NCBI RefSeq assembly: GCF_964019385.1
Contig: NC_088647.1
Coordinates: forward strand, 18,345,533-18,409,532
Length of the DNA stretch: 64,000 nt
Direction of reading: 5' to 3'
Source of the DNA: Sycon ciliatum
Lineage: Eukaryota > Porifera > Calcarea > Leucosolenida > Sycettidae
Shown here piece by piece: positions 12,121 through 43,728 of the stretch. The first letter of the stretch is position 1; the number at the start of each line of letters is the position of its first letter. The translations under genes and the position numbers were made by a program. The notes beneath the pieces are model-generated. The model did no database searches. It was given only the letters and a program-made list of their open reading frames with translations, and had not been told where the DNA came from.

Positions 12121-13475
12121 TGCCTCCACCACGGCACCAGTGTTCGGGAGTGCAGAATCCAAAAACAACACCGTACCCGTTGACTGCTTGTAGTAGATGA
12201 CCCGATCCTCTAGGTACCCTAAACTAAAGCAAGTGATTGGCCTTGAATTGGTCAGAGAAGATACGGGTGGATCGCTAGTGGACTGAGACTTGAGAGCAGG
12301 GCTGTTGATCAAGAGATCAGCCCTTTGGCCTTATTGTTTGCAAACTCCGTACAATCAATTGGTCACGTTTTGGAGAAATCTCTGTTTTGGGTGCATGCAC
12401 TCTTTTATCTTCAGAACGACTGCCGTACAGACTGCCAGCACAGTACATGTACCACTACTGGGCGTTGGGGGAGGTTGTCACAACACTGCCTGTGCTGGCA
12501 CTGGATACATGTAACATGGGTGTAGTTCACTTCAGCCACATGTGCACAGGTGCTCTTCAACACTCGACACAACAATCCTTCCTGTCCGATCCTGGCTCTG
12601 AAGCCTGTGAAGCCTGAAGGAAGTCGAATCAGGCTTTGAAAACATTCTGTTGTGTGAAACTGTTTACTTGATTTGAAAGTGGCACGCACACAGTACAGTG
12701 CGCGCCGCCGCGCCCAACGCGTGCAGCAGTCATGAAGTCATCGTGCCTCTCGAATCTTGCACCGCGTGTACCGGTCAGCGGTCACCTCGATCGACCTCAA
12801 CTCACTGAGTTGTCATACCGACATGATTTTGGCGTCTTGACTCTTTCAGCCGCAGTCTTTGAATCAGGGAGTCGTAGAATCTACGACTCCCTGCTTTGAA
12901 TCTTTCGAGAATCGGGATCATCCACACACGTACTGTACTACAGTGGTACTATGCGTGCAGTTGAATGTCGAATGAAGTAGACGCCTCGCATTTGAATGAA
13001 TTATTTTTATTTTCTGCTGAAAGGAGGGATCGGGAATAGAAGCCTTGGTTCGGAGAGAGTCGTCGGGCTCAGGAGTGCGGCAGTAAACGACTCGTGGTTC
13101 TTCAAGATCCTGCACCTGTCGAATCAGTGACCCTGATGTCAGTAAATAATTTTACTTCAGAAACAATTTACAAAACGACTACATTGTATTGATGGGCAAG
13201 TAATTCACATCTTCAGCTATATTAGTGGCACTGCACCAAGTCAAGATGTTTCAGTGACGTCTTCAAACCGTGTCTGTAGCACGTGGGGTCGGCTAGAACT
13301 CACCTCATGCTCAGTTTAGATTTAACTTCTAACAAACATTCGTCACCCACCCACCAGTATCAGGTATCAGGCACCACCACCACCATTGCAAGCATAATAG
13401 TGTGTCACTTGTCTTTTTTATCGCATTATCACAATTCCCGTAGTGCTAGTACTTGCATATCGTAGTGTTGACAAG
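12121..13475. promoter_or_regulatory. Divergent intergenic region between exchanger and TKFC
   Basis: The two genes start 1355 bp apart on opposite strands, so this stretch should hold both promoters. No TATA box or CpG-dense core stands out by eye. It contains the 29-bp hAT-like micro-insertion. Start codon contexts are GCGCCATGGC-like for the exchanger (minus strand) and ACAAGATGGC for TKFC. Confidence 0.5.
12865..12893. mobile_element. 29-bp palindromic hAT-like micro-insertion with 8-bp TSD
   Basis: CAGGGAGTCGTAGA, one central A, then its exact reverse complement. Flanked by CTTTGAAT at 12857-12864 and 12894-12901. The CAGGG ends and 8-bp duplication fit the hAT superfamily. It lies between the divergent exchanger and TKFC genes. 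Confidence 0.8.
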
Positions 13476-16400
13476 ATGGCCACCGCGTCACAGTTGCTGA
13501 ATTCCGTCGACGGAGCGGTGGACGACAGCCTGTCGGGCCTGGTCGCCGCCCAGCCGAGCCTGGCCCTGGTGGACGGGCATCGGCGCGTCGTCGTCAGGTC
13601 GGACGTGAGCGACGTTGTGTCGCGCGGCCGCGTGACGCTGGTCAGCGGCGGCGGCAGCGGCCACGAGCCGAGTCACGGCGGCTTGGTCGGACGCGGCATG
13701 TTGACGGCGGCGGTGGCCGGCAGCGTGTTTGCCTCGCCGCCGAGCAGCGCCATCCTGGCCGCCATACTGGCCGTGGCGGGCCGCGGCGGAGTGCTGGTCA
13801 TCATCAAGAACTACACCGGCGACCGGCTGCACTTCGGCCTGGCCGTGGAGAGAGCCAAGGGCATGGGCCATGACGTCAGGCTGGTGGTGATGGCCGACGA
13901 TATGGCCTTCGACACCGACGAGAATACGGCCGGTCGCCGCGGCCTGGCCGGTGCCCTGTTCATTCACAAGGTATATTAGTACATGACTGTACTGCTAATA
14001 CTGTATACACTCATACCTTGTTTATCCGGGCGGTCCGGGGCCGGGCACTGCCCGTAATTTTGAAATGTCCGTAACTCCGAATCACATACATTTTGATGGG
14101 CAAAGGCCATAGCTATGGCATATGGCGTCACTACTTCCGCAAAAAAAGTGACAAAAGAGTAGTAATATTTCCACTGAAATTCACCCAAAGTGTGCCCGGT
14201 AGACTGAAGTGCCCGTAACTTCGAGGTATGAGTGTACTAGTATTCGAAATCCTGTGCCCTGCGGCCAGTCTTGCAGACATGTGCCATAGCTGCATGAATG
14301 ACCGTGGCTCTGCTGCTGACACAGAGCCTGCATTTTGCTGCAGTGTCGCAGGCTGTACAAGTGTGCACAACATGTCTGCTGCCTTCTATCCTGCCCTGTC
14401 CTGTTGCCGAGCAGATCTGTGGAGCGATGGCGGAGCAGGGGAAGTCCCTGGATGAGGTCTACGCCACGGCTCAGCGCATCACCCAATGCACTGGTTAGGG
14501 ATTGAAGTACATGCAGTGTAACACTAGTATCGCTACCATTGCTAGACATAGGGCACTGGACAATCATGGAGAGCACCATAATTCCTCTAAACAAAGAGCT
14601 GCAGCAGTATAGGTATTTCCATGAACACAAAATTGCAATCAAACTAAAGAATATAACAAGCCTCAGGCCTAAAGTCAACAGTTCAAAGCTTCTCCGAGCA
14701 CTTGCGTTGCCTTCTCTTCAGGTGGATACAGGCAGAAGAAGAAACTAGCCAGTACAATCCTCTTTAAACAATGTATAGGTGATATAGGTAGACCATCGAG
14801 AACAAACACAGAAAAAGGAATGTGATGATTCTCACGCACATACAAGTACAAACATACCAAATCCTACGGTTGTGTGCTGATGGAGGCTGTCTATACGCAC
14901 GCGAGACTAACCAAACCTGTGCAAGCAGAGGCAGAACGCGTTCACACCCAGGCTGTTAGTTAGGACATCCACACATTGTTAGTTGGGTTCATTTGTCATC
15001 TAACGTTATTGTTAGCACAATGCATGTTACGCTGATCACACCTCCTCACGCGTACATCATTAAATTACATCATTAAATTACATCACAAATGTTGTGCATA
15101 ACTGTAATGTTTCTACGTGCGTGAGAATCATCACTTGACTCTGTTTTCTAACGGTTTGTTCTCACTAATCTCCCTATTGCTACTCATACCACCTGTAGGT
15201 TGCTTGAAGGTTTTTGTACTGGCTAGTTTCTTCTTCTGCCTGTATCCACATGAAGAGTAGGCATTAACAAAGTGCTAGGGGACACTTTGAAATTTGATTG
15301 TCCAGAGCCTGGCATTTGTTGTTAGTCTGGTGGTGTAGCGCTATAGCATATATAGCGACATGCTGGGCTTAGTTATTTTCGTGTCCAACCTTGCTGGTCA
15401 CCTCATGGTAATAACTGCTACATTTGCCCTTATCATCCCTGCAAGGGGAGAATTGTACGGCTTTCCGAATGGCGCACAGAGACTAGCACAGTATCCCAGT
15501 CGAAAGTCAGCCATGATGATGGTCAAATAATCCAAGACCTCCTATGTGAACGTTATGAAGTGCGGCTTAATCTGCTTGCTTCCTATTGTGTGTGCGTGTG
15601 TTTGTGTTCGCGCGCGCATGTGTGGGCACGTGTGTGCGTCCGTGTGCAGCTACTATTGGCGTGAGTCTCTCTCCGTGTCACGTTCCCGGCCGTGGAGCGT
15701 CTTTTCAGCTGCCGGACGGCATCATGGAGCTTGGCCTTGGTAAGGCAACTAATCTGCTGGAGTATCTGTACACCAAGCCTATGGCAATGGGGTGGAGCTA
15801 CCGTATATTCTCTATTATAAGCGCCGTGCTTATATTTTTTCAACACCCCTCTACCCCGTGCTTATATTGGAGACCGCGCTTATATTGGAGACTGCGCTTA
15901 TATTTTTTCAACCACTACAATCCATACAGAGCAAGAAGAAATACATCCTAGATATCATGCATGCAGCATTGATTTCCACCAAGACCGTGCTAATAATAGA
16001 GACCGTGCTTATAATGTTTCGAAAGGTGCTCACAATGTGCTAGTATTAGAGACTGTGCTAGTAATGGAGACCTGTGCTTATAATAGAGAATATACGGTAT
16101 TCTCCTCTCTAATCTGTGTGGGTTTTTTTGTTTTATTGTTTTAAGACTATACATGTACAAGTACTGTTAGACCTCTGCATTCGAATTTAAGCCACGCCAA
16201 CCAAACAGACGAAAACGCATTTTGATACCATATACACCCCGCCATGTGCCGCTAGTGAAAACTTGGAATTTGGAAGAAAACGGAGCCTGGTAGAACCCTG
16301 AAGTCGCGTACGTGCAGGTCACGCTTAACACGGAAATAGTGACTTGGCATGCGAGGCCGACCCGTCCTGTCGGGCCACCGGGATTACAGTGTATGCAGCG

Positions 16401-19400
16401 TAGTACATGTTTGTAGGTTTCGTGGCATTTTTTCTTGATTCTACTGTTGCGTCGCCACCGTAGCTCTTTTTTTAAAATTCTCTTTAAGAAGAAGACAAAA
16501 AAAACAGATTTGATTGTGTCCGTGTCTTGTGTGCGTTCTTGCTGGTGACAGGGATCCACGGGGAGGCTGGCTTACAACGTACCAAGGTCAGTGGTAAAGT
16601 ACATGTACGACTCGTAGTTGCTGAATACTTGCCGACGGTAGAGATTGAGACTAACATGAACTGTAATTTTTTCACCGACGGGATTATGCAACACAGAAAT
16701 TTGATGCACATGTATGTAAGGCTGCGTTCGTTTTTGTGTACTTGGTAGAGTCGAGTAGAGCGGATGTTAGAAAAAGAAGAGACGGTGGATGGTAGCTTAC
16801 AAATGCAGATCTACCCATTTCGGTAGAATGTCTATTTTACAGTACGATGTACGATATTATTGCGGATACGAGCTATACTATTGCCACACAAGTAGTCTTC
16901 TTGTTTTCTTTCTCTTGCCATGACTGGCTAACACCCCCTCCTTTGCATTGGCTTTTGCCATTGGACGGTGAATTTATTTTAGGTACAGAAATACAGGCGC
17001 GTAGCACCGCCGTTGGCGGTGGTCCGGCTGGGGGGGGGGGGGGGGGGTTCGGGGGGATCTCCCCCGTATTTTTTTTGAAATTAGGGTGCAGAATCCTGCA
17101 TTCTGGGCACTTTTTGCATTGTTTTACTATGGTGGTCATGGTCAGGCGATAAAGTGGTCCGGCCAAAGCCGGACCGGCCGGAGTGGCTGCTACGCCCCTG
17201 AAATACCGTACCTCTACCAACTTCTCCCGACTTCTACCAGCCTCAAACCTGGTAGAGCATGTAGAGGAAAGAAGCATCTACCGTTTGGGATAGAAAAACG
17301 AGCACATCTACCTGGGATGACGGCTACACCATAACTCAGTGGTTAGAGTATCGCTGGCCTCAAGCGAAGGTCCCTGGTTTAATTCCTGGTGGTGACAGTC
17401 AATTTTTTCTTCAGACTTTTCCCTTTTCCATTCCCTCAACTTCTGAACATTTACCGAAATAAGTAGTTTCGACCCAAACCTGTAGATCAAAAGTAAGGTT
17501 TCTTTTTGAAAACGATGTTTGATTTTCAGTAGAGAATGGTGCTTGCTGCCCAAAAGGTAATTGTGCCAAAAAAGGAGAAAAAAAAAGTTGGTACCCCCGG
17601 TGGGATTCGAACCCACAACCTTTGAATGCCGTCAAGCATGAAGTGTAATGGTGACCCCCTCCACCATCCTGACTGACACTAGCTAGTATTCATGGTGTTG
17701 TGTGAATGTCTCCTAGTACAAGTACGTGTACTAGCTGCTTCTGTTCGTTGCTGTGTGCACTGTTTGTGTTCTTTCCTGTGTACATGAGTACTTGCATGGC
17801 GTTGTCGTTCAGGGATGAGTCGTGCGTGACTCCTTGTTCCACTGCATGTGCGGTGTGCTTCTTATCTTCTAATCTATAGGCTTCGTGCGGTTGGTGTCCG
17901 CTTTCTCTTCATGATCATGAGCCACTGCGTTGTATAGACTGCATGACGTGCTAACGGTGGCTGCCGTGCGGTGTGTGCGATTCACTGCATTCCTGACACT
18001 GCTGCTTGCAAGCGCATACATGTACTGCACCTTCGCGTGCTCTGTACTTTAGTCTTTAGTTCCGGTTCGATGCACCATGCGCATGCGTCCGGTATGGTGC
18101 GACATGGTTCTTGCTCTCCCAACATTGTTTTTAGTTAGTTCTTTTTCTTAGTCCCAACAATAACCTCATGGAATTATAATCAGTGTGAAACGTAACTATG
18201 AGTTCGGTTGTGGGTCTGCAGTAGTCCTAGTGACACGGTTATAGTACAGCTTGTGGTGCCGAAACCCGGGAGGACGTCAGGGATACCAGCTGGGTTGCTG
18301 GTTGGCGTCGTGGTTGATTGTACTGTCGCGTGTGGACTCGTGGGGAAACTGAATTTTCCGATCTAAGTACGATGTCGAAAGCTGAAGGATACCTGCGACC
18401 CTACCGGGGAAAGGTCGATGATTTCCAGACGTTCTGGGCGAAATTTGACGTGCTGGCGACAATCAACAAGTGGGACTCGGACGAGAAGAAAATGGCCCAG
18501 TTACCCTTGTTTCTGGAGCAGGATGCGTTCCTGGTGTTCAGCCGAATGAAGTCGGATGACAAGAAGAAGCCTGACGCCGTCCAGAAGAAAATGGAAGAGG
18601 CGTTTTGTATGACGAAGTCGGAAGCCTACCGGCGGTTCAAGGCCCGACGCATGAGACAAGAGGAGTCACCAGATGCCTATGTTGCCGATTTGCAGCGCCT
18701 CGCCAGTTTGGCCGGCGATGCGTCGCCTGGGGATGACAAAAATCACTCCGTTGTTGAGCAGTTTCTTGACGGGCTTCCACATGCGTGGGCAAAGCAGGTT
18801 AGGTTGTCACTTGTGGGAAAGGACCAGACTGTGAGCGCCTGCTTAGAATTAGTCCGTGCTGTTCAGCTTAGTGATGGCGATTCTGTGACAGCTGCAGTAG
18901 GTACAGGTGCTGGAACTGGTAGTTTGGCTGGTGGAGCACGTGGCGACAAGACCAGCAGGAAGTCTTTCTTGTGCTACCTCTGCAATGAGGTCGGCCACAT
19001 GAAGCGAGATTGCCCAAGGAGGAAGCAGGGGCAGCAGAGTGGGTCCAGCTCCAAGGATGGTGGAGGCCGTGGCAGTACGTGCTACTTCTGTGACAGGCCT
19101 GGTCACAGGAAGCCAGACTGTCCGGACCGGAAAGCTTGGCTGGCGAGCCGGCAAGGCGGGAGTGCTGCAGCAGCAGCTGGAGAGGAGCCTAGTCCAGCCT
19201 TGGCCTCTGTGTCTGTGCCTTCGCCAGGGCAGCTGCCTAGGATCAAGGTAGACATGTGGACAACGGGCAACAAGGACGATGTGTCACGTATGACAGCAGT
19301 CATTGACACTGGTGCTGTCCGATCACTGCTGACTAAGGACCAAGCCCTGTCCTGTGGCCTTGCGTGGTCAGAGTGTGAAAGCAGACTCGTGGCGCTGGAT

Positions 19401-22400
19401 GGCCAGTCTATTGCTGTTCTTGGGAAAGTGGCCGTCAACATTGGACGATTGGATGGCCCTATCCCAGTGCAGATGCCAGAAGCCAGTGTGGAGCTGTTAG
19501 TCGTCAACGATCTGAGTGTCGTACACGCCGATTTGTTGATCGGTTGTGATGTAGCGAGCAGCTGTGGTGGCCTACATCTTGAGTATGCCAATGATGGCCG
19601 GCTGGAGAGTGTGAGGTTTGGGCCAGTGTCAAGTCCTGTGTCTGCTGCACTTCCTCAGGACGGTCACCCTTCCCGCCACGTGCAAGTGAGCCGTCATGGA
19701 CAAGGTGTCACGTTGTCGGCACGTGATGGAGAGGTCCAATGGTGTCATGAAACCAAGCGTTGGATTCTCCGCTGGAAGTGGAAAAGTGGTGCAGCCCCTG
19801 AGGTTCCAGTGGGCTCTGGCATCGGCCAGTACTCCAGGGAGAAACTGAGCCCAGAGCAGGAGAAGTTGTTCTGCAAGGAAGTCGACGCTTGGATCGCTAA
19901 TGGTTGGCTTGTGCCGCACGATGAAGCCACACATGGAGCAGTGGCTGGTGTGCTTCCGTTGATTGCTCGCACCCAAGAGCATAAAGCATCCACCCCGATC
20001 AGACCATGCCTGGATTATCGTAAGCTTAATGAGCTCATTGAGTCTGAGCCTGGCTATGAAGCCCCCGTGTGCGCCGAGAAGATCAGGCAGTGGAGACGCA
20101 GCAGTGATGGTCAGTGGGAGATGCTAGACGTGAAGAAAGCATATCTCCAGGTGCATGTCAGTGCTGAGCTAGTGCGCTACCAGGCCGTTCTCTGGAACAA
20201 CAAGGTGTACGTGATGACCAGAATGGGCTTCGGGTTGGCGATTGCGCCGAAGTTTATGCACCTCGTCATCCAGTGGATCACTCGCCATCGCCCAGAAGTC
20301 GACAACTATGTTGATGATATCCGAGCTCCAGCAGAAGTGACTCAGTGTGTTGCCGACGAGCTTGCAGCCTACGGACTCCCAACGAAGCCTGCCGAACCCA
20401 TGGAGGAGTCCCGTGTTCTTGGTATGCAACTGAAGGCTAATGCCGATGGCGCCATGGGCTGGTCCAGGAGAGAGATCGATCTAGAGCCACCACCAAAGAT
20501 GACAAGACGCAAGGTCTTCTCGTGGTGTGGACGCCTTATTGGCCACTACCCGGTCTGTTCGTGGCTCAGGCCTGCTTGCAGTTACCTGAAGCGGCTGGCG
20601 ACTGCTGCAGGTGGCAATGGATGGGACGATCCACTGCCGGAAACCCTTGTTGAATGCTGCCAAGAGCTGTTCGCGAGGCTCTCCTCCGACGATCCGGTGC
20701 ATGGTCAGTGGGACGTGCACGCGCAGGCTGACTCCACCTGGACTGCGTGGTGCGATGCATCTGGCCTAGCTATTGGTGTCGTTCTTGAGCTCGACGGGAC
20801 CGTTGTGGAAGATGCGTCATGGCTTCGGCCTGCAGGGGACAAGCTCCATGTAAATGTTGCTGAGCTTGACTCTGCCATTAAGGCCCTCACGCTAGCCACG
20901 AGGTGGAACGCGACGCATGTGGTTCTGAAGACTGACTCGAAGACTACTGCGGGATGGCTGGCTCCGGTTGTTGGTGGGTCACGTCGCGTCCGGGTTGGTG
21001 GTCTGCATGAGGTTCTGGTGCAGCGTCGGCTGCAGATAGTCAATGATCTTCTTAGCATGACGGAGATACAGGTGACTGTGGAGTGGGTGCCAACGACTGA
21101 AAACCTTGCAGACAAGCTGACGCGCGTGCCGTTCAACTGGCCGAAGAAGAGCTCTGATGTTGTGGCCAGTCTGCCGAGGGCTGTGGCTGTTAGCCCTTTC
21201 TCTAGCGATGAGTTGGGCAAAGCCCAGGCATCGGACGAGGTCATCCAAGGAGTGATTCAGCAGATTCAAGTTGGCCAGCCAGTAGCAAGTCGGCGCTTCC
21301 GCAGTTGCGCCGGTCAGCTTCATGTGGAGGAAGGCTGCCTAGTCAGGAGCCTGAAGCTGCCTGTGGAAGGGGAAGTCAATGTGCCAGTCGTTCCCGAGTT
21401 GTTAGTGCCTGATGTCGTGACTGCTGCTCATGTCAACACTGGTCATGCTTCCTGGCAGCCAATGTATGAGTTGCTCCGCAAGCACTGTTACTTTCCTGAG
21501 ATGGCGTCTGCCTGCCAAGACCACGTCAAGGGGTGCCAGAACTGCCAAGCCGCTAGTCCAGCAAAAGGCCCAGCAGCCCCCAGCGCCAGAGCAGAGATCC
21601 CAGGTCGACCATGGGGAACAGTGCAAATGGACACCCTGGAGCTTGGGCTGAACCGTGGCGGGACACACCACTGCGTGCTCGTGTGCGTGGATGTGCTGAC
21701 AAAGTGGGTGGAAATAGTGCCAATGAAACGGCACGACGGGCCCAGTGTTGCCTCGGCCTTCGTGAGCTTGTGCTGTAGGTGGGGACCACCAGACGTCATC
21801 CGTGTGGACAATGGGACTGAGTTCAGCAATGCCATTGTCCAGTCTGTCTTTCAAGTGTTCGGCGTGAGGGTGAAGACAGGTGCCGTTCGCCATCCGCAAT
21901 CCCAGGGAGCCGCCGAGAGGTACAATCGGACATTGCTGACTCTCATCAGGAAGGTCCTCGACGAATCATCGGACTGGATGGACGATCTTCAGATGCTGGT
22001 CCACTTCTACCGCTCTCGACCGCATTCAGTGACTGGCATGTCCCCAATGATGGCCATGGTTGGGTGGGACCCACCTGTGTTGATTGACGATGGACGCTCT
22101 AGGTACGACTTTGACACGTGGCAAGCAGAACACGCAGCACGATCTGCTAGGATCCGAGACCTTCTGGAAGACGCCATGTCGGAAGGCGACTGCCGTGACG
22201 AGGTGCTGCCCTGCGCTTACCAGGCTGGAGATGCAGTCATGCTGCGGATGCCTAGTCGTCGTCAGAAGCGATTGCCGCCTTTTGAATCCGGCTGGACTGT
22301 GAAGAAAGTCATTTCTCCATCAACTGTCGTGATCTGGCGGAGGTCTGATGGTAGATCCCCTCGAGAGAAGGTGGTGAACGTGGAACTCATCAAGCCGGAT

Positions 22401-25400
22401 GCTCCACGGCCAGGTCTGGAATTGCCAACGGAAAACTTCCCTGATGGAGATGACGGCCAGGAGGGTGACAGCTTCAAAGCAGATGGCTGGCTTGGATGGC
22501 TCCCTGATCCGCAGGAGCCTGCTGCCGATGGCCAGCATGTCCGCATGGATCTTCGAAACCGACAAGGCATCCAGCGACCAGCTCGCTTCCAGGATTGATG
22601 CGGCTTGGCAGGAAATGTCACCAGGCGGAGGGATGAAGTGTAATGGTGACCCCCTCCACCATCCTGACTGACACTAGCTAGTATTCATGGTGTTGTGTGA
22701 ATGTCTCCTAGTACAAGTACGTGTACTAGCTGCTTCTGTTCGTTGCTGTGTGCACTGTTTGTGTTCTTTCCTGTGTACATGAGTACTTGCATGGCGTTGT
22801 CGTTCAGGGATGAGTCGTGCGTGACTCCTTGTTCCACTGCATGTGCGGTGTGCTTCTTATCTTCTAATCTATAGGCTTCGTGCGGTTGGTGTCCGCTTTC
22901 TCTTCATGATCATGAGCCACTGCGTTGTATAGACTGCATGACGTGCTAACGGTGGCTGCCGTGCGGTGTGTGCGATTCACTGCATTCCTGACACTGCTGC
23001 TTGCAAGCGCATACATGTACTGCACCTTCGCGTGCTCTGTACTTTAGTCTTTAGTTCCGGTTCGATGCACCATGCGCATGCGTCCGGTATGGTGCGACAT
23101 GGTTCTTGCTCTCCCAACATTGTTTTTAGTTAGTTCTTTTTCTTAGTCCCAACAATAACCTCATGGAATTATAATCAGTGTGAAACGTAACTATGAGTTC
23201 GGTTGTGGGTCTGCAGTAGTCCTAGTGACACGGTTATAGTACAAGCAGCTAGCCCGATTAGAAGTCCAATGCGCTAATCCATTGCGCCACGAGGGTGACC
23301 ATGTGTTGGACAGCTTGACATGAGGTATTTGAGTGAAAGCGTTTGTGCTTCCCACTGTCTTTTGCCTGCTGCAGGTGGTTTCCGCCGACGAGACGGTGGC
23401 AATGATGGCCGAGCGGTTGTTCAAGCAGAACATGTTTGCTGCAGGTAATGGTCGGGCAATTTCTTGACGTAAGCCTCTTTTACGTGCAAAAGAAACCCAG
23501 TTTGAAACTATTCATTAGTTCAGGGAGTTGAAATTTGAGCCTTGTTTGGGAAATGCATAATTATCCAATACAATTTCATGCAAACCGCATTTCAAAGAAA
23601 AAGCACAAAACAGCAGAGGAGTAAGAATACCAAGAAAAATCCAGTTCGCATCAACTCCACCTAAATTTTTGGTTTTTGCCATTTGAGGTCACCATTTTGC
23701 ATGGACCATAGTCGCGGAAAAATGGTCATGAACCCGGTGTGGTACTGTGCCTAAAGCATTGAACGTATGCAGCATTAATTATGTTGGATTCGGGAAATTT
23801 TGCATCAGGTGCGCCATGATTTTGGAGGTACTCTTCGGCCAGCACCCTGTTGTTGGTCACTCCCGTGTACTGTACTGTCCGAGTACAGGCAGGGGTGTCA
23901 CAGGGCAGTGGGGAGGGGGGGGGGGGGTGGTATGACCCTAGGTCTGGGGTGAGTCCCGGGGGAGGGGGCGATCTGGCCAGCTGGGCAGACCATCCTGGAC
24001 GAAAAGTACAGCGATGGTCGTACTGGTCGTACCGTGTGTGACGCTCCTGGCAGGTGTGAGGGTGCTTGTCATTGTGTGGATGAGGGTGTGTGGATGAGGG
24101 TGCTTGTTTGTCAACCTCTGTGCACATGCTCTGTGTGTTTTCCAAACCTCTTTTATATGTGTACTTGTGTGCTTGCAGGTGATCACGTGGCACTCATTGT
24201 CAACAACCTAGGCGGCTTGTCCAACCTGGAGTTGGGTGTTGTCAGCAAGGCAGCCATAGATCATCTAGGTAGGGCCAAGCGGTACCTCCTAAGGTGCTTT
24301 GTGTACCTGACCCACTCCCTGCACACGCTTCATTCCATGGCAAGTGTCTGACTCTGTATATAGCATGTACAGGGAGGAGTACATAGTAGCAGTCTGCAAT
24401 CTCATACATCTATGACATGTGTTTTACCAATGTGGCGGGGGGGGGGCTAGCTATATACTACCTGGGAACTGTTCAGTGTTTCTGCTATCCATAGTTGTTT
24501 CTATAGCAATAGTGTCCATGCTCTGGCACACCTACTTTGAAGTATGAACATCATGATACTTACACACGCCACGTCCCAGGAAACCTTGCCCTGTGTTGTA
24601 TGTAGACCTTTGGTGCTCGCGCATAGTTTTGAGCGTGTTGGTCATCATTTTTGAACTATTGTGTCTGTAGAGGAAGCTTGCTGTGTTACAATTTGCTGAG
24701 TTTGTCCAACGCTTGATTTTCGTTCAGTCGTGCTCGATGAAATCCAGCCGAATGAAAAGACTAGCACCCTGAACCAATTCTCGACAAAGGTGCCTATAGT
24801 GCTAGGGTTCCGTAGCACCCAATGCCTACTCACTCTTCAGATCATATATCATTAAGGATGACTGGGCTTCTTCGTGAACTAGGCACTAGGCACCGGTTGC
24901 ATTGTCCACTTCTTGGTAAGCAAGTGTAGAGTCTGAAACTCTTGCCTGTAGTGCAGGCCATTTCCCACAGTATCCGAGTTCTAGTCCTGTACATGCAGGG
25001 GCGTAGCACCCGCTACGACTGGTACGACCATGGCCGTACCACTTTTCGAAAAGTGTGGTCCGTCCGGAACGTGCAAAACCGTAATAAAAAAATCAGGATC
25101 CATCCAGATGCATGCGCACATTATGACCTTTTTCTAGACTCGTACTCGTAGATCTGTTGTGCATCTGCAGTCGTACTGAGTACTGTATACATGTACTCGA
25201 CTTGATCAATTGACTGCACAGTAAGTGTGCCAGAAGTTCCCAGAACGCAGGATTTCGTGTCTTTTTTACAAAATTTTCCCGGGGGAGGTCCCCCGGACCC
25301 CCCTCCAACAGGGCCTTCGGCCGCGCCGACCTTCGGTCGTACCACTTCCAAAAACACTCCTACGCCCCTGACATGGTACACTTCTTTTACTGTGCTAGTT

Positions 25401-32244: not shown

Positions 32245-32323
<79 letters not shown>

Positions 32324-32784: not shown

Positions 32785-32821
<37 letters not shown>

Positions 32822-35463
32822 TGCATGCGTGTGTGTGTGTGTGTGTGTGTGTGTGCGTCTGTGCATGCATGTGTGCGTGTGTGTGCGCGCGTATGTTCTC
32901 TGTGCATTGCAGCTATGGCGGAGCGAAACGTGGCGATCGCACCATGGTAAGGGTTTGAGCAAAACACCGCCATATTGGATTATTTTGTAGGATTTAAAGT
33001 TGGCATGCAGGTAGCAAAATACTTATACAGATGTAGCACTCAATCTCCGAACAGCTAGCTGTTTCGACCTTGCTAGGTCTCGTCAACAGAGTTACTGGCC
33101 GAGCCGCTCACAGTGAAGTCTAATGAACAATAAAGCTTCTTTTTTCTTTTTTAAACCAGCTCAAAGCATCAAAGTCAGACTGCTCCAACTGTGATACACA
33201 CAGCGAGCTTTGCACGAGGGAGGGAAACATTGATGCTAACCAGAAAGAGTGCTCGACCAAGGCGGGGCGAATATGTTCTGTCACGTGTACTTGCTTCATC
33301 TTTCTGTGAGAACCGGACCTTTGGGACGGTGAGAAGGCAACAATACCTGTGCAACTGGTGAAGTAAAAATAATAATAGTCAACAACAACAATGACGGCGA
33401 CGCCGCCGACGACAACAACAGCAGCAGCAACAACAACAACAACTTGCGTTGTTGTGTCCTGTCCATAGCTCGATGCCCTCTGCGGCGCACAGGATGTGCT
33501 GAACAAGGCTGACGACAGCGCTACCCAGTCCCAGCCCCGGTCGAGCAGTGACGCTGTTGAAGCTCTAACCCTGGCCGTGCAGGTAAGCACAGTGGAGTGT
33601 AACCGAATGGTCCCCAGTATCATGCACCCTCTAGGGTCAAGTAGCATGACCAAGACGGGCGCTAATCACACACCGGCCCCCCAGAGGGTCGCAGCCTGCT
33701 TGATATTGAAGAAGGGCGGCGGGAAAAGTTTGTGCATAGCTGTCTAAATCTGCATAGCTGTCTAAATCTGCATAGCTGTGGACATGGAGTACATCATGTT
33801 GAATAAGGTAGGTCTATTGCCATACGTAGATCTACGCACCTGCAATTTTTGTTGTCTTTGCCTGTGAGCTGTGATCATTGTAAAAAAAATTAAAAAAAAG
33901 AACCAGCACAGTGGGTTACTACTCTTCAGTGCCTGCATGTACTGTAAAAGCAGAAATTTTCGGTGGTGTAATATTTTCGATATTCTCCAAAATCGGCGGT
34001 TCGGTGGAGGGAAATTTTCGGTAAAACCCGCGTTCCAGGTAAGTGTACTAGTACTATAATACGATATTTTCGGTGCGTTTAAAAATTTCGGCACCGAAGT
34101 TACCGAAAATAAAAACCCACCGAAAATTTCTGCTTTTACAGTACATGTATGTAATGCATCATGCACACGTACAAGCATGCAATGCATTCTACCTAGAGTA
34201 GATAAACTCCGGATCTCTCCTGCACAATCTGCAGATACCCCCGCCCACGGCGGAATTTTTTGTTGACGTCACCTTTTTTCAGAAGAACGCGCATTTTGCC
34301 GCAGAGCAGTGTGAGAGCACGTGCTGGTCACCGACATTGTGGTGTAAAGCCGGCCAAGAGCACGAGGGAAAACTTTCCGAAACACTCGCAGCGCGTGCGT
34401 CGTCGAAAAGATTACGTCAACAAGAGGCTTTGAGGGGTGGCACAGCACCATGATACGTGGCGCCGACTGCAGCCCTGGTTGGTTCGGGTTTAATAAGCAT
34501 AGCATATGTTATTGATGATCAACCCATGGTACGTGTGCTGTAAACACATTCTACTGCCGTGGGCATGGAAATCCGGTCGGAGGTCCAGCGGCCCGGGCCA
34601 TGCTGGCCATGCAGCCGTAAGTACACATACGATCAACATGTGCACTCACTGCATGCAGCGTTCTGTACGCACTGAGGGCACCGGCCCGGAGGCATTCGGC
34701 CGGATTTTCATGTGCACGACAGTAGCACTAAAGTACAGGTGTATTAATGTTGTAAAGTTGTAAACACTAGATCTTAGTCTTGTGACAACAAGAAAAAGAG
34801 GAGGAAAAGTGTTTTTACTAGGGGTAAAACGAAGGTCTCAATTTGCAAAACGAACCTTCTTCATCAAAACGAACGAATGTGTCGAAGGATTCTCTTACCA
34901 GTTACCGTTGAAGCGCACTCTGTGCATGTGCCCTACTAAGTATATGACCGTTACTATGTTTGCTGGGCAGTCACCACAAGTGGCACGCCCATAGCTTTTG
35001 CACTGCGCAATTTGCACCCCCAACTGCCCAAAACTACTTCTGCACCCCGCGGCCTCTCTACAGGGCAGATCAGTGCATGCGTGCCTGAAGAAATCGTGTG
35101 TTGGCCTTCGTTTGAATTGAAAACGAAGGTTTGTTTCACATGAAAACAAAGGTTCTTCGAACCTTTGACACCTTCGTTTCACCCCTAGTTTTTACTCAGA
35201 GTTTCACGCACTAAGCGATGATCAGAAAACAAAATCTTAGTCTTGTTGTTATGATATGTCCTGTGTGCCGCTCCCTCACTCCTCAGGCATCCCGTGCTGG
35301 CGCGGAGGCCACGGCGTCGATGAAAGCCCGCGCGGGCCGTGCCAGCTACGTCAGCTCGGCGCACTGGACGCGACCCGATGCCGGTGCCACGGCCGTAGCT
35401 ATCTGGATGAGCGCGCTACTGGGATCGCTGACCGAGCTGGCGAGCCAAACCCCTGCAGCGTGA
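13476..35463 (+). CDS. TKFC: Triokinase/FMN cyclase (dihydroxyacetone kinase), 14 exons, complete
   Basis: Exons: 13476-13970, 14415-14493, 15650-15739, 16552-16586, 23375-23444, 24179-24268, 25484-25603, 26094-26240, 26929-27057, 29623-29732, 30034-30146, 32913-32946, 33469-33582, 35287-35463. They join in phase to 600 aa plus TGA (human TKFC is 575 aa). The enzyme phosphorylates dihydroxyacetone and glyceraldehyde with ATP; the animal form also makes cyclic FMN from FAD. The N-terminal DhaK domain has GGGSGHEP (residues 58-65) and, in the 35-bp exon 4, IHGEAG, whose His (about residue 224) is the family's covalent substrate-binding residue. The C-terminal DhaL domain starts near residue 376 with [15 protein letters not shown]; Asp401, 406 and 408 fit the metal/ATP site. 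[18 protein letters not shown] and AGRASYVSS follow as expected. The start ATG lies 11 codons inside a longer open frame and was chosen because it begins the family's usual N-terminus. Introns carry many mobile elements; the largest (intron 4, 6.8 kb) holds an intact Ty3 element. Confidence 0.95.
14008..14234. mobile_element. Tigger/pogo-like MITE, 227 bp, TA TSD
   Basis: Ends CACTCATACCTTGTTTATCC and the inverse of CACTCATACCTCGAAGTTAC, flanked by TA. GCCCGTAA and GCCCGG motifs recur inside. TKFC intron 1, 38 bp after exon 1. Confidence 0.75.
15801..16097. mobile_element. MITE with CCGTATATTCTCTATTATAA ends, TA TSD
   Basis: 297 bp, near-perfect TIRs of about 22 bp, flanked by TA (15799-15800, 16098-16099). 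The interior repeats GTGCTTATATTGGAGACC-like units. Same family as 10233-10859. TKFC intron 3. Confidence 0.8.
16994..17200. mobile_element. hAT-like short element, 207 bp, 5-bp TSD
   Basis: Left CAGGCGCGTAGCACC and right GCTACGCCCCTG, flanked by AAATA (16989-16993, 17201-17205). Contains a G-run at 17032-17047. Same end type and TSD length as the elements at 24996 and 30340. TKFC intron 4. Confidence 0.7.
17325..17397 (+). repeat. tRNA-like sequence (tRNA pseudogene or SINE head)
   Basis: ACCATAACTCAGTGGTTAGA provides an A-box-like D arm and CCTGGTTTAATTCCTGG a T arm/B box. Acceptor pairing is poor. It lies 195 bp from the broken tRNA-Arg in TKFC intron 4. Confidence 0.4.
17639..18248 (+). 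repeat. 5' LTR of the Ty3-like element
   Basis: 610 bp, TG...CA ends, same length as the 3' LTR and no difference found by eye. It should hold the element's Pol II promoter and polyadenylation signal; no convincing TATA box was picked out. Confidence 0.92.
18372..22598 (+). CDS. Gag-Pol polyprotein of the Ty3-like retrotransposon (single fused ORF)
   Basis: About 1408 aa from the ATG at 18372 (the frame is open upstream to 18318). Domain order is Gag, protease, reverse transcriptase, RNase H, integrase, i.e. the Ty3 order. Gag ends with two CX2CX4HX4C zinc knuckles ([14 protein letters not shown] near residue 201, [14 protein letters not shown] near 237). The protease active site is [12 protein letters not shown] (near 310). 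RT has [12 protein letters not shown] and catalytic YVDD near 647. RNase H has WCDASG, AELDS and KTDSKT. Integrase has an HHCC finger (HVNTGH...CQNC) and DDE residues in [15 protein letters not shown] and AAERYNRT. No frameshift or stop is present, so Gag and Pol are made as one protein. BEL/Pao is less likely given the domain order and integrase type. Confidence 0.93.
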   Translation: MSKAEGYLRPYRGKVDDFQTFWAKFDVLATINKWDSDEKKMAQLPLFLEQDAFLVFSRMKSDDKKKPDAVQKKMEEAFCMTKSEAYRRFKARRMRQEESPDAYVADLQRLASLAGDASPGDDKNHSVVEQFLDGLPHAWAKQVRLSLVGKDQTVSACLELVRAVQLSDGDSVTAAVGTGAGTGSLAGGARGDKTSRKSFLCYLCNEVGHMKRDCPRRKQGQQSGSSSKDGGGRGSTCYFCDRPGHRKPDCPDRKAWLASRQGGSAAAAAGEEPSPALASVSVPSPGQLPRIKVDMWTTGNKDDVSRMTAVIDTGAVRSLLTKDQALSCGLAWSECESRLVALDGQSIAVLGKVAVNIGRLDGPIPVQMPEASVELLVVNDLSVVHADLLIGCDVASSCGGLHLEYANDGRLESVRFGPVSSPVSAALPQDGHPSRHVQVSRHGQGVTLSARDGEVQWCHETKRWILRWKWKSGAAPEVPVGSGIGQYSREKLSPEQEKLFCKEVDAWIANGWLVPHDEATHGAVAGVLPLIARTQEHKASTPIRPCLDYRKLNELIESEPGYEAPVCAEKIRQWRRSSDGQWEMLDVKKAYLQVHVSAELVRYQAVLWNNKVYVMTRMGFGLAIAPKFMHLVIQWITRHRPEVDNYVDDIRAPAEVTQCVADELAAYGLPTKPAEPMEESRVLGMQLKANADGAMGWSRREIDLEPPPKMTRRKVFSWCGRLIGHYPVCSWLRPACSYLKRLATAAGGNGWDDPLPETLVECCQELFARLSSDDPVHGQWDVHAQADSTWTAWCDASGLAIGVVLELDGTVVEDASWLRPAGDKLHVNVAELDSAIKALTLATRWNATHVVLKTDSKTTAGWLAPVVGGSRRVRVGGLHEVLVQRRLQIVNDLLSMTEIQVTVEWVPTTENLADKLTRVPFNWPKKSSDVVASLPRAVAVSPFSSDELGKAQASDEVIQGVIQQIQVGQPVASRRFRSCAGQLHVEEGCLVRSLKLPVEGEVNVPVVPELLVPDVVTAAHVNTGHASWQPMYELLRKHCYFPEMASACQDHVKGCQNCQAASPAKGPAAPSARAEIPGRPWGTVQMDTLELGLNRGGTHHCVLVCVDVLTKWVEIVPMKRHDGPSVASAFVSLCCRWGPPDVIRVDNGTEFSNAIVQSVFQVFGVRVKTGAVRHPQSQGAAERYNRTLLTLIRKVLDESSDWMDDLQMLVHFYRSRPHSVTGMSPMMAMVGWDPPVLIDDGRSRYDFDTWQAEHAARSARIRDLLEDAMSEGDCRDEVLPCAYQAGDAVMLRMPSRRQKRLPPFESGWTVKKVISPSTVVIWRRSDGRSPREKVVNVELIKPDAPRPGLELPTENFPDGDDGQEGDSFKADGWLGWLPDPQEPAADGQHVRMDLRNRQGIQRPARFQD
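22634..23243 (+). repeat. 3' LTR of the Ty3-like element
   Basis: 610 bp, apparently identical to the 5' LTR. It begins 36 bp after the gag-pol stop, so there is almost no 3' internal region; the short stretch before it (about 22620-22633) is purine-rich (GGCGGAGGGA) and is the likely polypurine tract. Confidence 0.92.
24996..25370. mobile_element. hAT-like short element, 375 bp, 5-bp TSD
   Basis: Left CAGGGGCGTAGCACCCGC and right CCTACGCCCCTG, flanked by ACATG (24991-24995, 25371-25375). No transposase coding. TKFC intron 6. Confidence 0.75.
26443..26620. repeat. (CA)n then (GT)n, facing microsatellites
   Basis: About 95 bp of CA, a 28-bp spacer, then about 42 bp of GT, which could form an extended hairpin. 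TKFC intron 8. Confidence 0.95.
27366..28882 (+). mobile_element. Penelope-like element without reverse transcriptase, inverted 137-bp terminal repeats
   Basis: Arms at 27396-27532 and 28746-28882 are inverted copies, identical by eye. The left arm is preceded by about 30 bp not present at the right (compare the short tail known in Penelope-like elements). CTGTTTAAAACCAG occurs at 27352-27365 and 28883-28896 as a 14-bp target-site duplication. The only coding sequence is a GIY-YIG-type protein, the endonuclease half of Penelope-like elements; no RT is present. TKFC intron 9, sense orientation. Confidence 0.75.
27521..28597 (+). CDS. GIY-YIG endonuclease-like protein of the Penelope-like element
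   Basis: Open from 27521 with no ATG near the front; a TTG at 27548 is one possible start. N-terminal [16 protein letters not shown] then SARIKQH is the first half of a Penelope-type GIY-YIG domain with its CX2C insert. The C-terminal [18 protein letters not shown] looks like the second half with the catalytic Glu. Between them lie about 270 residues: a basic stretch ([13 protein letters not shown]), a proline-rich stretch, then an acidic D/E repeat region (about 28195-28400). In other Penelope-like elements the domain is compact. The protein may be a remnant, since the left arm replaces the upstream RT region. Confidence 0.7.
   Translation, partial: RDQGLPSHLLSHLVYQFECRNCDSRYVGRTLQHLSARIKQHVPLHMLPDAAKAKRPKRGRPRKNPLPLPPTQPEQVEHTVQRKSGGSLSQPNVPSPPLPLPPPEPPPVPLVAGVWEESATTTVPPITDIEPISLTQYPAVRTPQHPPALDPWVQRPRRSTANYSTEIYARNGQGPRGASKETGSRGQNGTQSRDVDEVKTVTRDRRRKENMDGIRRLTGGEYELGDDAADDENTDDDEADDGEDTDDDEAGDDEAADEDEADDGETAGGDGDKTDEEESGGREGDGADEGEIRKKSAVYLHLLSRPDCLSVYDDSHFSVLCRARYVQQLKVLEAVCIRTHKPDLCKQKEHVLALRLFS
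29175..29531 (+). pseudogene. Internally deleted LINE fragment (N-terminus joined to C-terminal zinc finger)
   Basis: One frame reads [16 protein letters not shown], the usual beginning of a LINE endonuclease domain, then jumps to [13 protein letters not shown] and LAQDRRDWR, usual near LINE C-termini, and ends in a C2HC-type finger ([20 protein letters not shown]) and stop. The RT and most of the endonuclease are missing. It lies in TKFC intron 9, just after a (GT)n run and 91 bp before exon 10. Confidence 0.6.
30694..30811. repeat. Long hairpin, about 45-bp arms
   Basis: The left arm ACATCGAAGAAAAG... (30694-30740) pairs with 30769-30811 apart from one substitution and a 4-nt indel; the loop of about 28 nt contains a further CGAGG/CCTCG stem. 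It could be the core of a MITE or a structured RNA precursor. Confidence 0.7.
31195..31745 (-). pseudogene. LINE 3'-end fragment, (AAC)n tail
   Basis: The minus strand encodes a short C-terminal piece ([20 protein letters not shown], then NALPSDFR) typical of CR1-like LINE protein ends, then a 3' UTR and an (AAC)n tail seen as (GTT)n at 31195-31231. Severely 5' truncated. Confidence 0.55.
32249..32322. repeat. (GT)n microsatellite
   Basis: About 74 bp, end of the first duplicated unit in TKFC intron 11; a second GT-rich tract lies at 32777-32890. Confidence 0.95.
33942..34141. mobile_element. MITE with CTGTAAAAGCAGAAATTTTC ends, TA TSD
   Basis: 200 bp with about 25-bp near-perfect TIRs and further ACCGAAAAT motifs inside, flanked by TA (33940-33941, 34142-34143). 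TKFC intron 13. A decayed relative with TTTTCGGTA/ACCGAAAAT motifs lies at about 26695-26885. Confidence 0.8.
34193..34430. mobile_element. Truncated relative of the 10421 MITE
   Basis: Repeats the left and central parts of the 10421 element (GAGTAGATAAA, CTCCGGATCTCTCCTGCACA, CGGCGGAATTTTTTGTTGAC) but loses similarity after AAAAGATTACGTCAACAA; the right TIR and TSD are missing. It lies in TKFC intron 13. Confidence 0.65.
34819..35187. mobile_element. hAT-like MITE, 369 bp, 8-bp TSD
   Basis: Ends TAGGGGTAAAACGAAGGT and the inverse of TAGGGGTGAAACGAAGGT, flanked by GTTTTTAC (34811-34818, 35188-35195). The TAGGG ends and 8-bp TSD fit hAT. TKFC intron 13, ending 99 bp before the last exon. Confidence 0.82.
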
Positions 35464-36874: not shown

Positions 36875-36948
36875 CAAACGCAAGATCATAACGTGAAGCA
36901 ACTAAGTTACTTGGAAGAATGGGTATGAATGGGGGAATGCATGTAGGG

Positions 36949-36997
36949 CAGGGAGTCGTAAAATACTAGGTATTCCTAGGTATTTTACGACTCCCTG
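36949..36997. mobile_element. 49-bp palindromic hAT-like micro-insertion with 8-bp TSD
   Basis: 18-bp perfect arms (CAGGGAGTCGTAAAATAC and complement) around a 13-bp partly self-complementary centre. Flanked by ATGTAGGG at 36941-36948 and 36998-37005. Shares its outer 12 bases with the insertions at 12865 and 43684. It sits in a tRNA-like (SINE-like) sequence. Confidence 0.8.
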
Positions 36998-37004
36998 ATG
37001 TAGG

Positions 37005-37062
37005 GCGATAGTGCGGGTTCGAATCCCAGGATATGTCTGAAAAAATAGGAGAATTGAAAAAT
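37005..37062 (+). repeat. tRNA 3'-half-like SINE fragment
   Basis: GTGCGGGTTCGAATCCCAGG is a T arm/B box, followed by TATGTCTGAAAAAATAGG as in tRNA-derived SINEs. The 49-bp micro-insertion interrupts its upstream part. Confidence 0.35.
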
Positions 37063-39333: not shown

Positions 39334-39336
<3 letters not shown>

Positions 39337-39402
<66 letters not shown>

Positions 39403-39501
39403 TGGCGTGGGCCTGCGTTTTGTAGTGCGTTCAATGATGAGTGTTTTCAATTCTGATTGCCGGTACTTTTAGCCCAGTATTGCGGTTCTATAATTTTTGT
39501 G

Positions 39502-39582
<81 letters not shown>
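39337..39582. repeat. Two (GT)n microsatellites
   Basis: GT tracts at 39337-39400 and 39508-39582, within a GT/GCGC-rich stretch starting at 39040. Confidence 0.95.
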
Positions 39583-39584
<2 letters not shown>

Positions 39585-39689
39585 AGTGTGTGTGCACGCA
39601 TATGTGTGCCGATGGTGTGCATTTTTGCGCTGCGTGAACACTCTCATCCCTAAACCGCGATACCGGAGCTCCCAAGCTACAGCCTCAGA

Positions 39690-42519: not shown

Positions 42520-42521
42520 TA

Positions 42522-43204: not shown

Positions 43205-43370
43205 TACTAGTACATGTAGTAGGGCACGGTCAGGTGTGTAGCAAGAAGGACCCATGGCCATGAGTGTGTGTGATCCCCGGTACGGCGGTAGCCTAATCGG
43301 TAGGGCACTGTCCCGGAAAGACAGGGGTGCTGGGTTCGAATCCCGCTCGTGGATCCTTCTTTTGCAACAT

Positions 43371-43403
43371 TGGCGCCCAACGTGGGGCTCGAACCCACGA
43401 CCC
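43371..43403 (+). other. Extended tRNA-Lys primer-binding site of the mini-element
   Basis: TGGCGCCCAACGTGGGGC is the classical primer site complementary to the 3' end of tRNA-Lys including CCA. The match continues through the T arm (TCGAACCCACGACCC), 33 nt in all as compared with the tRNA-Lys(CUU) sequence known to me. A normal primer site is about 18 nt. Confidence 0.7.
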
Positions 43404-43493
43404 ATCGTACCCCCCGCGAGCTAGGTACGGCGTGAGGACACAGCCTGTTGGGGCGGGGGAGCAGTGTAGCAAGAAGGACCCATGAGTGTGTGT

Positions 43494-43566
43494 GATCCCC
43501 GGTAGCCTAATCGGTAGGGCACTGTCCCGGAAAGACAGGGGTGCTGGGTTCGAATCCCGCTCGTGG
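43494..43566 (+). ncRNA. tRNA-like cloverleaf inside the mini-element's right LTR
   Basis: A 73-nt fold: acceptor TCCCCGG with TCGTGGA (6 of 7 pairs), D stem GCCT/GGGC, anticodon stem CTGTC/GACAG (perfect) with loop CCGGAAA, five-base variable loop, T stem CTGGG/CCCGC (4 of 5 pairs) with loop TTCGAAT. The A box (TAGCCTAATCGG) and B box (GGTTCGAATCC) fit an internal Pol III promoter. The loop would give anticodon GGA, but base 33 is C rather than the invariant U and the variable arm is too short for tRNA-Ser, so it is probably not a working tRNA. The left LTR copy has 8 extra bases in the acceptor arm. Confidence 0.65.
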
Positions 43567-43683
43567 ATCCTTCTTTTGCAACAGGTGGATCTTGAAAGTG
43601 CTACCTCACAGCATAGCAATGGCATAGCAACAATTTGAAAAATTCAAAAACTGGATCCACCTGGATCCAGTTTTTGTATGGAT

Positions 43684-43728
43684 CAGGGAGTCGTAAAATA
43701 CCATAATATGGTATTTTACGACTCCCTG
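43684..43728. mobile_element. 45-bp palindromic hAT-like micro-insertion with 8-bp TSD
   Basis: Two perfect 22-bp arms (CAGGGAGTCGTAAAATACCA...) around a single central base, flanked by GTATGGAT at 43676-43683 and 43729-43736. Same outer arms as the other two family members. Confidence 0.8.

Follow-up and report, generated by a model that had tools for sequence, protein, structure and literature searches.

Transposases of the P superfamily are GTP-dependent. The best matching described system is the P element of Drosophila, which, in passages of PMC7776569, is characterized by a 17-nt staggered cut, 31-bp terminal inverted repeats (TIRs) and 8-bp target-site duplications (TSDs). The junctions left by excision of P{wa} in spn-A mutant flies consist of a TSD, remnants of the TIRs joined at AT/TA, and the second TSD (PMC2895639, Table 1); alternatively, the 17-nt tails are joined through templated insertions (a passage of PMC2895639). 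A 64,000-nt stretch of the Sycon ciliatum genome (hereinafter, the window) contains three short palindromes that resemble such junctions. The analysis described here suggests that these are likely to be end-joined excision scars of P-superfamily DNA transposons whose cut would be staggered by about 22 nt; they would thus document earlier jumps and probably are not the smallest transposons on record.

Palindromes in the window

Direct reading of the sequence bears out the initial annotation in that the three palindromes, 29, 49 and 45 bp long, share the arms CAGGGAGTCGTA and are each flanked by a different perfect 8-bp repeat (Table 1). The 29-mer and the 45-mer have a single unpaired centre base each; the 49-mer has an imperfect middle. 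Comparison with the parent elements described below supports the view that each unit is two TIRs fused without an interior; the 12-nt arms of the 29-mer are common to all parents and do not discriminate between the parent types. That a transposon was inserted at each site is likewise upheld by the TSDs and, for the copy at 43684, by paralogous empty sites with one GTATGGAT at three loci (L029, L041 and L060; 87-89% identity). For the copy at 36949, there is one weak paralogous empty site only (L061, 78%).

Table 1. Coordinates of the three palindromes and their flanking duplications in the window
Feature	Position	Strand	Description
Left 8-bp TSD	12857..12864	.	CTTTGAAT; sequence read directly
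Putative 29-bp palindromic scar	12865..12893	.	12 nt common to all parents per side + 5 bp GAATC
Right 8-bp TSD	12894..12901	.	CTTTGAAT; sequence read directly
Left 8-bp TSD	36941..36948	.	ATGTAGGG; sequence read directly
Putative 49-bp scar	36949..36997	.	AAAATACC-type terminal repeat, 18 + 19 nt, with 12 bp filler
Right 8-bp TSD	36998..37005	.	ATGTAGGG; sequence read directly
Left 8-bp TSD	43676..43683	.	GTATGGAT; sequence read directly; empty sites
Putative 45-bp scar	43684..43728	.	AAAATACC-type terminal repeat, 19 + 19 nt, with 7 bp filler ATAATAT
Right 8-bp TSD	43729..43736	.	GTATGGAT; sequence read directly; empty sites

Copy number and target-site duplications across the genome

The pattern CAGGGAGTCGTAN{0,30}TACGACTCCCTG has 1,587 matches in the 538-Mb genome and none when read backwards as a control, so the palindromes are not due to chance. 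This count covers exact-arm units, with the variant tip CAGGGAGTAGTA falling outside it. Only 50 units genome-wide have a spacer of 31-61 bp, compared with the 1,587 at 0-30 bp.

We classified the TSDs of 49 copies, namely, the three in the window and 46 matches from the first listed places on contig C1 (L001-L044; 50 places were listed, of which three were left out and one overlapped another). Perfect 8-bp TSDs flank 26 of these copies; the others have 7/8 identity (6), 7-bp duplications (2), a displaced 8-mer (6) or no TSD (9). When left and right flanks were paired at random in 2,000 shuffles, the mean number of perfect matches was 0.53 and the maximum was 4. One of the nine TSD-less copies, L017, has 13 bp of inverted flank in place of the duplication. 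The TSDs conform to the motif nTnnnnAn (T at position 2 and A at position 7 in 79% of 34 TSDs), with G as the commonest first base and C as the commonest last base; this is the form of hAT-superfamily TSDs, and it is also compatible with the P superfamily. The hundreds of copies with distinct TSDs that the initial annotation had named as supporting evidence do exist as far as copy number is concerned, and their TSDs are distinct within the sample of 49.

Full-length parents

Two types of full-length elements (1.0-3.6 kb), without a recognisable transposase, share the tips of the palindromes and are flanked by 8-bp TSDs. Elements of the C type, exemplified by the 1,367-bp element at L141:51-1417, have TIRs of 170 bp (99% identity in L141); of 12 places chosen from the best-scored matches, 11 have the two ends together with a perfect 8-bp TSD, whereas L155 lacks the right end, and these 11 include two short derivatives (142 and 184 bp). 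Elements of the A type have the tip CAGGGAGTCGTAAAATACCGGGAGGCGACAC and are 2.1-3.6 kb long; their ends are identical over 31-32 bp in six of the eight pairs (26 bp in L178 and 19 bp in L187/L188, a full-length form that carries one additional arm of 18 bp), and seven of the eight elements have a perfect TSD. The 8-bp TSD of both types and the TIR of about 31 bp seen in the A type are P-superfamily features. No transposase was recognised in L141 (judged by frame length only), L177 or L178. Intermediate deletions of 997, 184, 142 and 79 bp also exist. When 19 flank pairs of full-length or deleted elements were compared with the loci collected, no site had a full element in one copy and a scar in its duplicate.

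The 38-bp palindromes were at first read as having no long parent because a search with CAGGGAGTCGTAAAATACCH arms detected no pair 100-10,000 bp apart among the 100 matches listed; the parents, which have CCGGG, were missed by these arms and were found subsequently. A 430-bp element in L002 was also considered as a parent and rejected: it is an unrelated MITE of about 390 bp, with ends AGGGACCTTTCG, inserted in a palindrome. By-eye counting showed a 3-bp duplication for this MITE in 12 of the 17 stretches with both ends found.

Arm-length limit and fusion points

Arms were compared with the parents in 71 copies, the 49 analysed above and 22 from 20 chosen places in the long-spacer list. The parent-derived arm is 12-22 nt long in 69 of the 71 copies and longer in two; for six copies, including one in the window, the match to the known parents is confined to the common 12 nt and carries no information on the 22-nt limit. 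The most frequent length is 21 nt (43 arms), and no arm in the first 49 copies exceeds 22 nt. In the parents, the inverted repeats extend past this limit, with A-type repeats of about 31 bp and C-type repeats of 170 bp.

Among these 69 copies, the two arms overlap by exactly 4 nt in 20, by 3 nt in four, by 2 nt in two, by 1 nt in three and by 0 nt in two; the remaining 38 contain at least 1 nt of extra sequence (filler), and the arm limit near 22 nt also applies to those whose parent type is known. The 4-nt overlaps are the self-complementary tetramers CCGG, which gives a 38-mer (21+21-4=38), and CTAG, which gives a 40-mer (22+22-4=40); these are the commonest forms, and an identical 38-mer core is present in 15 of the 49 copies, at many sites. 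Further core types also exist, namely, TAGACC, AAAAGCC and GATCTAC. An identical 56-bp, three-arm form with different TSDs at L128 and L129 fits a CCGG fusion of the full-length variant with the extra 18-bp arm. The two copies beyond the limit, L126 and L127, are near-identical palindromes of 79 bp; their parent-derived arms measure 31-53 nt and their TSDs are perfect. These two must be either another kind of deletion or mobile. Their inner part, GGGAGGTGACACGG, was considered as a separate TA-target element; this was rejected because an exact palindrome of it occurs once genome-wide, which identifies it as parent sequence. L134, a 65-bp palindrome with self-complementary arms of 32 nt and no TSD, may have longer parent-derived arms as well because its parent is not among the known types.

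A P-type transposase match within one element

A profile search of the genome yielded 44 matches to the P transposase (PF21787), including several open multi-copy frames. One element with palindrome-type ends, TSD GTGGTACC and a C-type right end (L191) encloses such a match, in the 1,101-aa P-type frame at C5:34344827-34345210. The genome has just two copies of the sequence GTGGTACCCAGGGAGTCGTA, at C5:34340277 and C5:34349485, and these bound this 9,200-bp element. The parts of the element that were read are the right-hand 105 bp and an internal piece of 901 bp. The internal piece has an open frame that matches SAP weakly and runs on the other strand from the P frame; the P gene, therefore, could be nested or a neighbour.

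Proposed excision scars and the alternatives

The favoured scheme starts with insertion of an element, which would generate the 8-bp duplication. On excision, the transposase would cut one strand at the tip but the complementary strand about 22 nt into the TIR, leaving on each side of the gap the duplication and a 3' tail some 22 nt long, a length estimated from the scars themselves. Because both tails have the same sequence, their pairing would be limited to self-complementary stretches (CCGG, CTAG, TA) or would require prior synthesis of filler, and end joining of the polymerase-theta type would then produce a short palindrome between two TSDs. The P gene would presumably drive the movement of the gene-less parents. 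The initial annotation had taken the TSDs to rule out excision scars; this is not supported, given that Drosophila P excision junctions retain both TSDs along with palindromic TIR remnants (PMC2895639, Table 1).

The view that the palindromes are free-standing transposons, the smallest known, cut and inserted by a transposase perhaps as extruded hairpins, could draw on the 1,587 copies, the perfect TSDs in 26 of 49, the identical 38-mer cores (15 of 49), and the recurrence of 56-mers (identical) and 79-mers (near-identical) next to distinct TSDs. However, a single fusion of a full-length parent suffices to give each of the 38-, 40- and 56-mers, so that these can originate independently at every site, and lengths drop where the 22-nt tails end, although a longer element should move at least as easily. 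Furthermore, the end requirements given in passages of PMC10368747 are longer, extending beyond the TIR in the hAT elements Tol2 and Hermes. Given that full-length parents share their ends and that, in 69 of 71 copies, no parent-derived arm is longer than 22 nt, we consider such tiny transposons very unlikely. Of the two options offered by the initial annotation, namely, that several forms spread or that short palindromes are made repeatedly, the second is favoured, whereas spread as free-standing units is not supported.

Collapse in place without a staggered cut, with the ends joined at a shared tetramer and the TSDs kept, would yield the same CCGG and CTAG products, whether by replication slippage across the inverted-repeat stem or by abortive gap repair after tip-cut excision; the intermediate deletions and the inverted flanks of L017, which are what fold-back would leave, are compatible with this route. 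It does not account for the limit near 22 nt, the same for 31-bp and 170-bp inverted repeats and seen also in filler-bearing copies of known parent type, and appears unlikely. The initial annotation had attributed the palindromes to hAT elements, which would require scars formed by some hAT reaction of an unfamiliar kind. The TSD motif, in the form given for Hermes in a passage of PMC10368747, fits this origin, and hAT genes are abundant (150 PF05699 matches scored, of 422 candidates). Nevertheless, a search within 1-1.5 kb of the domain in 50 hAT loci (1.5 kb around it in 30 loci and about 1 kb 3' of it in the other 20) confirmed no hAT transposase copy with a CAGGGAGTCGTA end, and the readable ends are TAGGGGTGAAACG-like. 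The near-matching end of L075, CAGGAAGTCGTA, was rejected because different ends are found on the other copies of this gene. Given also that a P-type frame lies between such ends in an element whose TSD pair is unique, a hAT origin seems highly improbable.

A second palindrome family, with ACCAAGAGTNCATAA arms, has 242 exact-arm copies and 3-bp duplications. In one case, neighbouring copies of this family have a common duplication. We know of cutting some 20 nt inside the ends from P elements only. Possibly, though this is doubtful, either long-tailed scars form in two unrelated transposon groups, the ACCAAGAGTNCATAA family belonging to a 3-bp-TSD superfamily that cuts about 20 nt inside, or some palindromes of either family are mobile.

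If the palindromes are excision scars, the genome sequence alone logs on the order of at least 1,000 P-type excision events, together with the target site and repair mode of each one, so that excision and end joining could be studied across a natural genome as opposed to a few laboratory crosses. At about 22 nt, the putative tail would exceed the 17-nt tail of Drosophila P, and its length is directly testable. This reading would also caution against annotating short palindromes as tiny transposons on the strength of perfect TSDs, since such units may be scars.

Comparison with known systems

In the titles and abstracts listed for open-licence papers, which constitute weak evidence, no such natural palindromes or scars are described. 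Like hAT MITEs, the palindromes have 8-bp TSDs of the form nTnnnnAn and the tip CAGGG; unlike these, they are far shorter and contain no subterminal sequence, and no hAT gene with their ends was found in the 50 loci. To our knowledge, hAT excision leaves no long TIR remnants.

With the P superfamily, as represented by Drosophila P and the zebrafish THAP9 element in passages of PMC7776569, the Sycon elements share the 8-bp TSD and the A-type TIR of about 31 bp; in addition, one element with these ends encloses the P-type RNase H match, which may be its own or that of a nested element or neighbour. They differ in the TIR sequence and in having two TIR types in parents without a recognised gene; the TIR of the zebrafish element is 13 bp, compared with 31-32 bp in the A type, the putative Sycon cut lies 4-5 nt further in than the known P cut, and the element around the P match spans 9.2 kb as against 2.9 kb.

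The P{wa} junctions, as given in Table 1 and passages of PMC2895639, share with the palindromes the succession of an 8-bp TSD, a fused TIR-remnant palindrome and an 8-bp TSD, as well as short self-complementary fusion points; the P{wa} junctions carry templated filler, and the Sycon units have filler too. However, the P{wa} junctions are laboratory repair events with 17-nt tails, whereas the Sycon genome contains 1,587 natural exact-arm units with parent-derived arms of up to 22 nt.

Palindromes and their target-site duplications

The three palindromes of the window and their perfect 8-bp repeats, recorded in the initial annotation, were confirmed by direct reading. In the 538,412,230-bp genome, the pattern CAGGGAGTCGTAN{0,30}TACGACTCCCTG has 1,587 matches and the reversed-pattern control has none; extending the spacer to 31-61 bp yields 50 matches, several of which are nested or tandem units. 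Target-site duplications (TSDs) were scored in 49 copies, namely, the first-listed places on contig C1 and the window copies. The duplication is perfect over 8 bp in 26 of these, matches at 7 of 8 positions in six, spans 7 bp in two, is shifted by a few bases in six, and is absent in nine; 2,000 shuffles of the flanks gave a mean of 0.53 and a maximum of 4 perfect matches, versus the 26 observed. Among 34 perfect duplications (both strands counted), T at position 2 and A at position 7 occur in 79%, with G the most frequent first base and C the most frequent last. Host-repeat paralogues of the 43684 copy in L029, L041, and L060 lack the palindrome and contain a single GTATGGAT; L039 holds a paralogous empty site for the copy in L014, and weaker ones were found for the L036 copy (at window 8540) and for the 36949 copy (in L061, 78%).

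A screen of 279,331 bases, mostly around palindrome copies, for 16-3000-bp units with inverted ends and a perfect 8-bp TSD returned 35 matches versus 1 in the control. Every match below 60 bp belongs to the palindrome family; hAT-like units of greater length have different ends.

Features located in the window, in stretches fetched from the genome (L), and on contigs (C)
Feature	Location	Description
Palindrome	window 12865-12893	29 bp
Palindrome	window 36949-36997	49 bp
Palindrome	window 43684-43728	45 bp
C-type element	L141:51-1417	1,367 bp; inverted repeats 170 bp, 99%
A-type element, full length	L187/L188 (C1:76197061-76199636)	extra 18-bp arm at right end; perfect TSD at outer arm
Neighbours 8 bp apart, common target duplication	C1:10670633, C3:8703748, C13:10134338, C14:2762632 and others
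20-mer GTGGTACCCAGGGAGTCGTA, only genomic occurrences	C5:34340277, C5:34349485
P-type frame	C5:34344827-34345210	1,101 aa
Palindromes with ACCAAGAGTNCATAA arms	window 10070-10100, L010:425, L044:2770, L101-L120	~31-49 bp
Near-perfect palindromes outside both families	L038:1837-1938; L030:424-503	arms 50 nt; 38 nt
MITE, ends AGGGACCTTTCG	e.g., L157-L176, L002:945-1374	~390 bp; mostly 3-bp duplications
Element, hAT-like ends TAGGGGTAAAACG	window 34819-35187	369 bp; perfect 8-bp TSD GTTTTTAC
Element, hAT-like ends TAGGGTGCAGCGG	window 52142-53545	1,404 bp; perfect 8-bp TSD GTGAGGGA
Element, ends TAGGGGTGAAACG	L063:813-3158	2,346 bp; TSD GTTTAAAC; hAT dimerisation-domain match
Two tRNA matches	window 43496-43570, 43282-43354	shortly upstream of the 43684-43728 palindrome
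Long open frame	window 18318-22598	by eye, retroelement polyprotein-like
Long open frame	window 46974-48884	by eye, TRIM-like protein
Long open frame	window 57926-60859	by eye, LINE polymerase-like

Full-length parents and the structure of the arms

With the 79-bp version of the palindrome as a DNA query, we found elements of ~1.0-1.6 kb that bear the palindrome ends (C type). Twelve places picked among the best-scored matches were fetched. The right end is missing at one; the other 11 retain both ends with a perfect 8-bp TSD, and two of these 11 are short derivatives (142 and 184 bp) produced by deletion. The longest frame of the L141 element is 91 aa. In the A type, which begins with CAGGGAGTCGTAAAATACCGGGAGGCGACAC, the two ends of a pair are separated by 2.1-3.6 kb on C1; among eight fetched pairs, the TSD is perfect in seven, and the two ends are identical over 31-32 bp in six, the exceptions being L178 (26 bp) and L187/L188 (19 bp, with an extra arm). 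Four frames from two A-type copies read whole gave no Pfam transposase match.

Arms were measured against the two parent ends in 71 short copies, namely, the 49 copies scored for TSDs and 22 from 20 places hand-picked among the spacer-31-61 matches. The parent-following part of each arm is 12-22 nt long in 69 copies, most commonly 21 nt (43 of 138 arms), and only the two 79-mers (L126, L127), which have longer arms and perfect TSDs, exceed 22 nt; because some copies with extra sequence represent core types without a parent found, this limit bears on known-parent types only. The 79-mers are compatible with a microhomology deletion at an inverted repeat within the C-type end, or with mobility of their own. 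The arms overlap by 4 nt in 20 of the 69 copies (the 38-mer consists of two CAGGGAGTCGTAAAATACCGG arms sharing CCGG, and the 40-mer of two CAGGGAGTCGTACTCAAACTAG arms sharing CTAG) and by 0-3 nt in 11; the other 38, including the three window palindromes (5, 12, and 7 bp), contain at least 1 nt of extra sequence. Six copies match known parents over the common 12 nt only; in one of them, L134, self-complementarity extends over 32 nt per arm.

A 56-bp three-arm form is present twice, with a different TSD each time, and a variant of it occurs at a third site; such a form is the product that the L187/L188 element, with its extra 18-bp arm, would be expected to yield by CCGG fusion. Since the 56-bp form and the 38- and 40-mers are each obtainable from parents by fusion, the recurrence of an identical palindrome at many sites does not require common descent. 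One 38-mer (L017:501-538) has, instead of a TSD, a 13-bp inverted flank (TACATGTTTGTAC / GTACAAACATGTA), a configuration expected from fold-back synthesis beyond the tip.

Neighbouring copies and a second palindrome family

Exactly 8 bp separate 16 of the 30 outward-facing end pairs that lie no more than 30 bp apart, the expectation for 1,587 randomly placed units being, by our estimate, ~0.005 per spacing; two of the 16 probably stem from duplication of a single segment. In the three such pairs read (L121-L123), the cores differ between the two units, and at C1:80036136 a MITE-invaded palindrome and a full-length element have ATGGAGAT in common. The spacing, the differing cores, and the C1:80036136 case together indicate that elements reinsert into exactly the 8-bp target that adjoins an old end. 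Double P insertions with a common 8-bp target are known in Drosophila (singed-weak). The ~390-bp MITE has 502 candidate places, of which 40 were scored, and at least three copies lie inside CAGGGAGT palindromes.

The second palindrome family, with ACCAAGAGTNCATAA arms, comprises 242 exact-arm copies genome-wide (control, 0). A 3-bp duplication flanks 16 of 24 copies read, or 13 of 16 after eight copies judged by eye to lie within one larger repeat were dropped. L108 contains two copies 3 bp apart, with TGG common to both; the window copy has surrounding context in common with other copies.

Superfamily assignment and origin of the palindromes

Genes for hAT transposases are frequent (150 PF05699 matches scored among 422 candidates), but a search reaching 1-1.5 kb from the domain in 50 hAT loci confirmed no transposase copy with a CAGGGAGTCGTA end. 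The P-type RNase H domain (PF21787) has 44 matches, with several open multi-copy frames. The GTGGTACCCAGGGAGTCGTA pair, together with a C-type right end (L191), bounds a 9,200-bp element with the TSD GTGGTACC that encloses the P-type frame. The portions of this element read are 105 bp at the right end and 901 bp inside, the latter containing an opposite-strand frame with a weak SAP match. Given the mostly unread interior and this opposite-strand frame, the P frame may belong to a nested foreign P element, or other DNA may be nested there.

The palindromes are best read as scars that elements of a P-superfamily family left when they were excised and the gap was closed by end joining. The features observed are the TSDs, parent ends, arm limit, self-complementary fusion points, and extra sequence; the transposase would make a staggered cut, and a repair enzyme would join the ends. 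Drosophila P transposase, as described in PMC7776569, places its two cuts apart, at the tip on one strand and 17 nt into the 31-bp repeat on the other. The spn-A mutant end-joining products listed in Tables 1 and 3 of PMC2895639 have the structure TSD-TIR remnant-(AT or TA)-TIR remnant-TSD, with templated insertions in otherwise similar junctions, and include shorter products without TIR remnants. The initial annotation took the TSDs to exclude scars, an argument that fails because these Drosophila junctions retain TSDs (PMC2895639); as the Sycon copies have the same anatomy, that of fused TIR remnants between TSDs, their TSDs do not argue against scars. Unlike the 17 nt of the Drosophila P element, the parent-derived arms in Sycon reach 22 nt. 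As far as the literature surveyed shows, the phenomenon is known in kind, and what is new is its scale and the inferred length of the tail.
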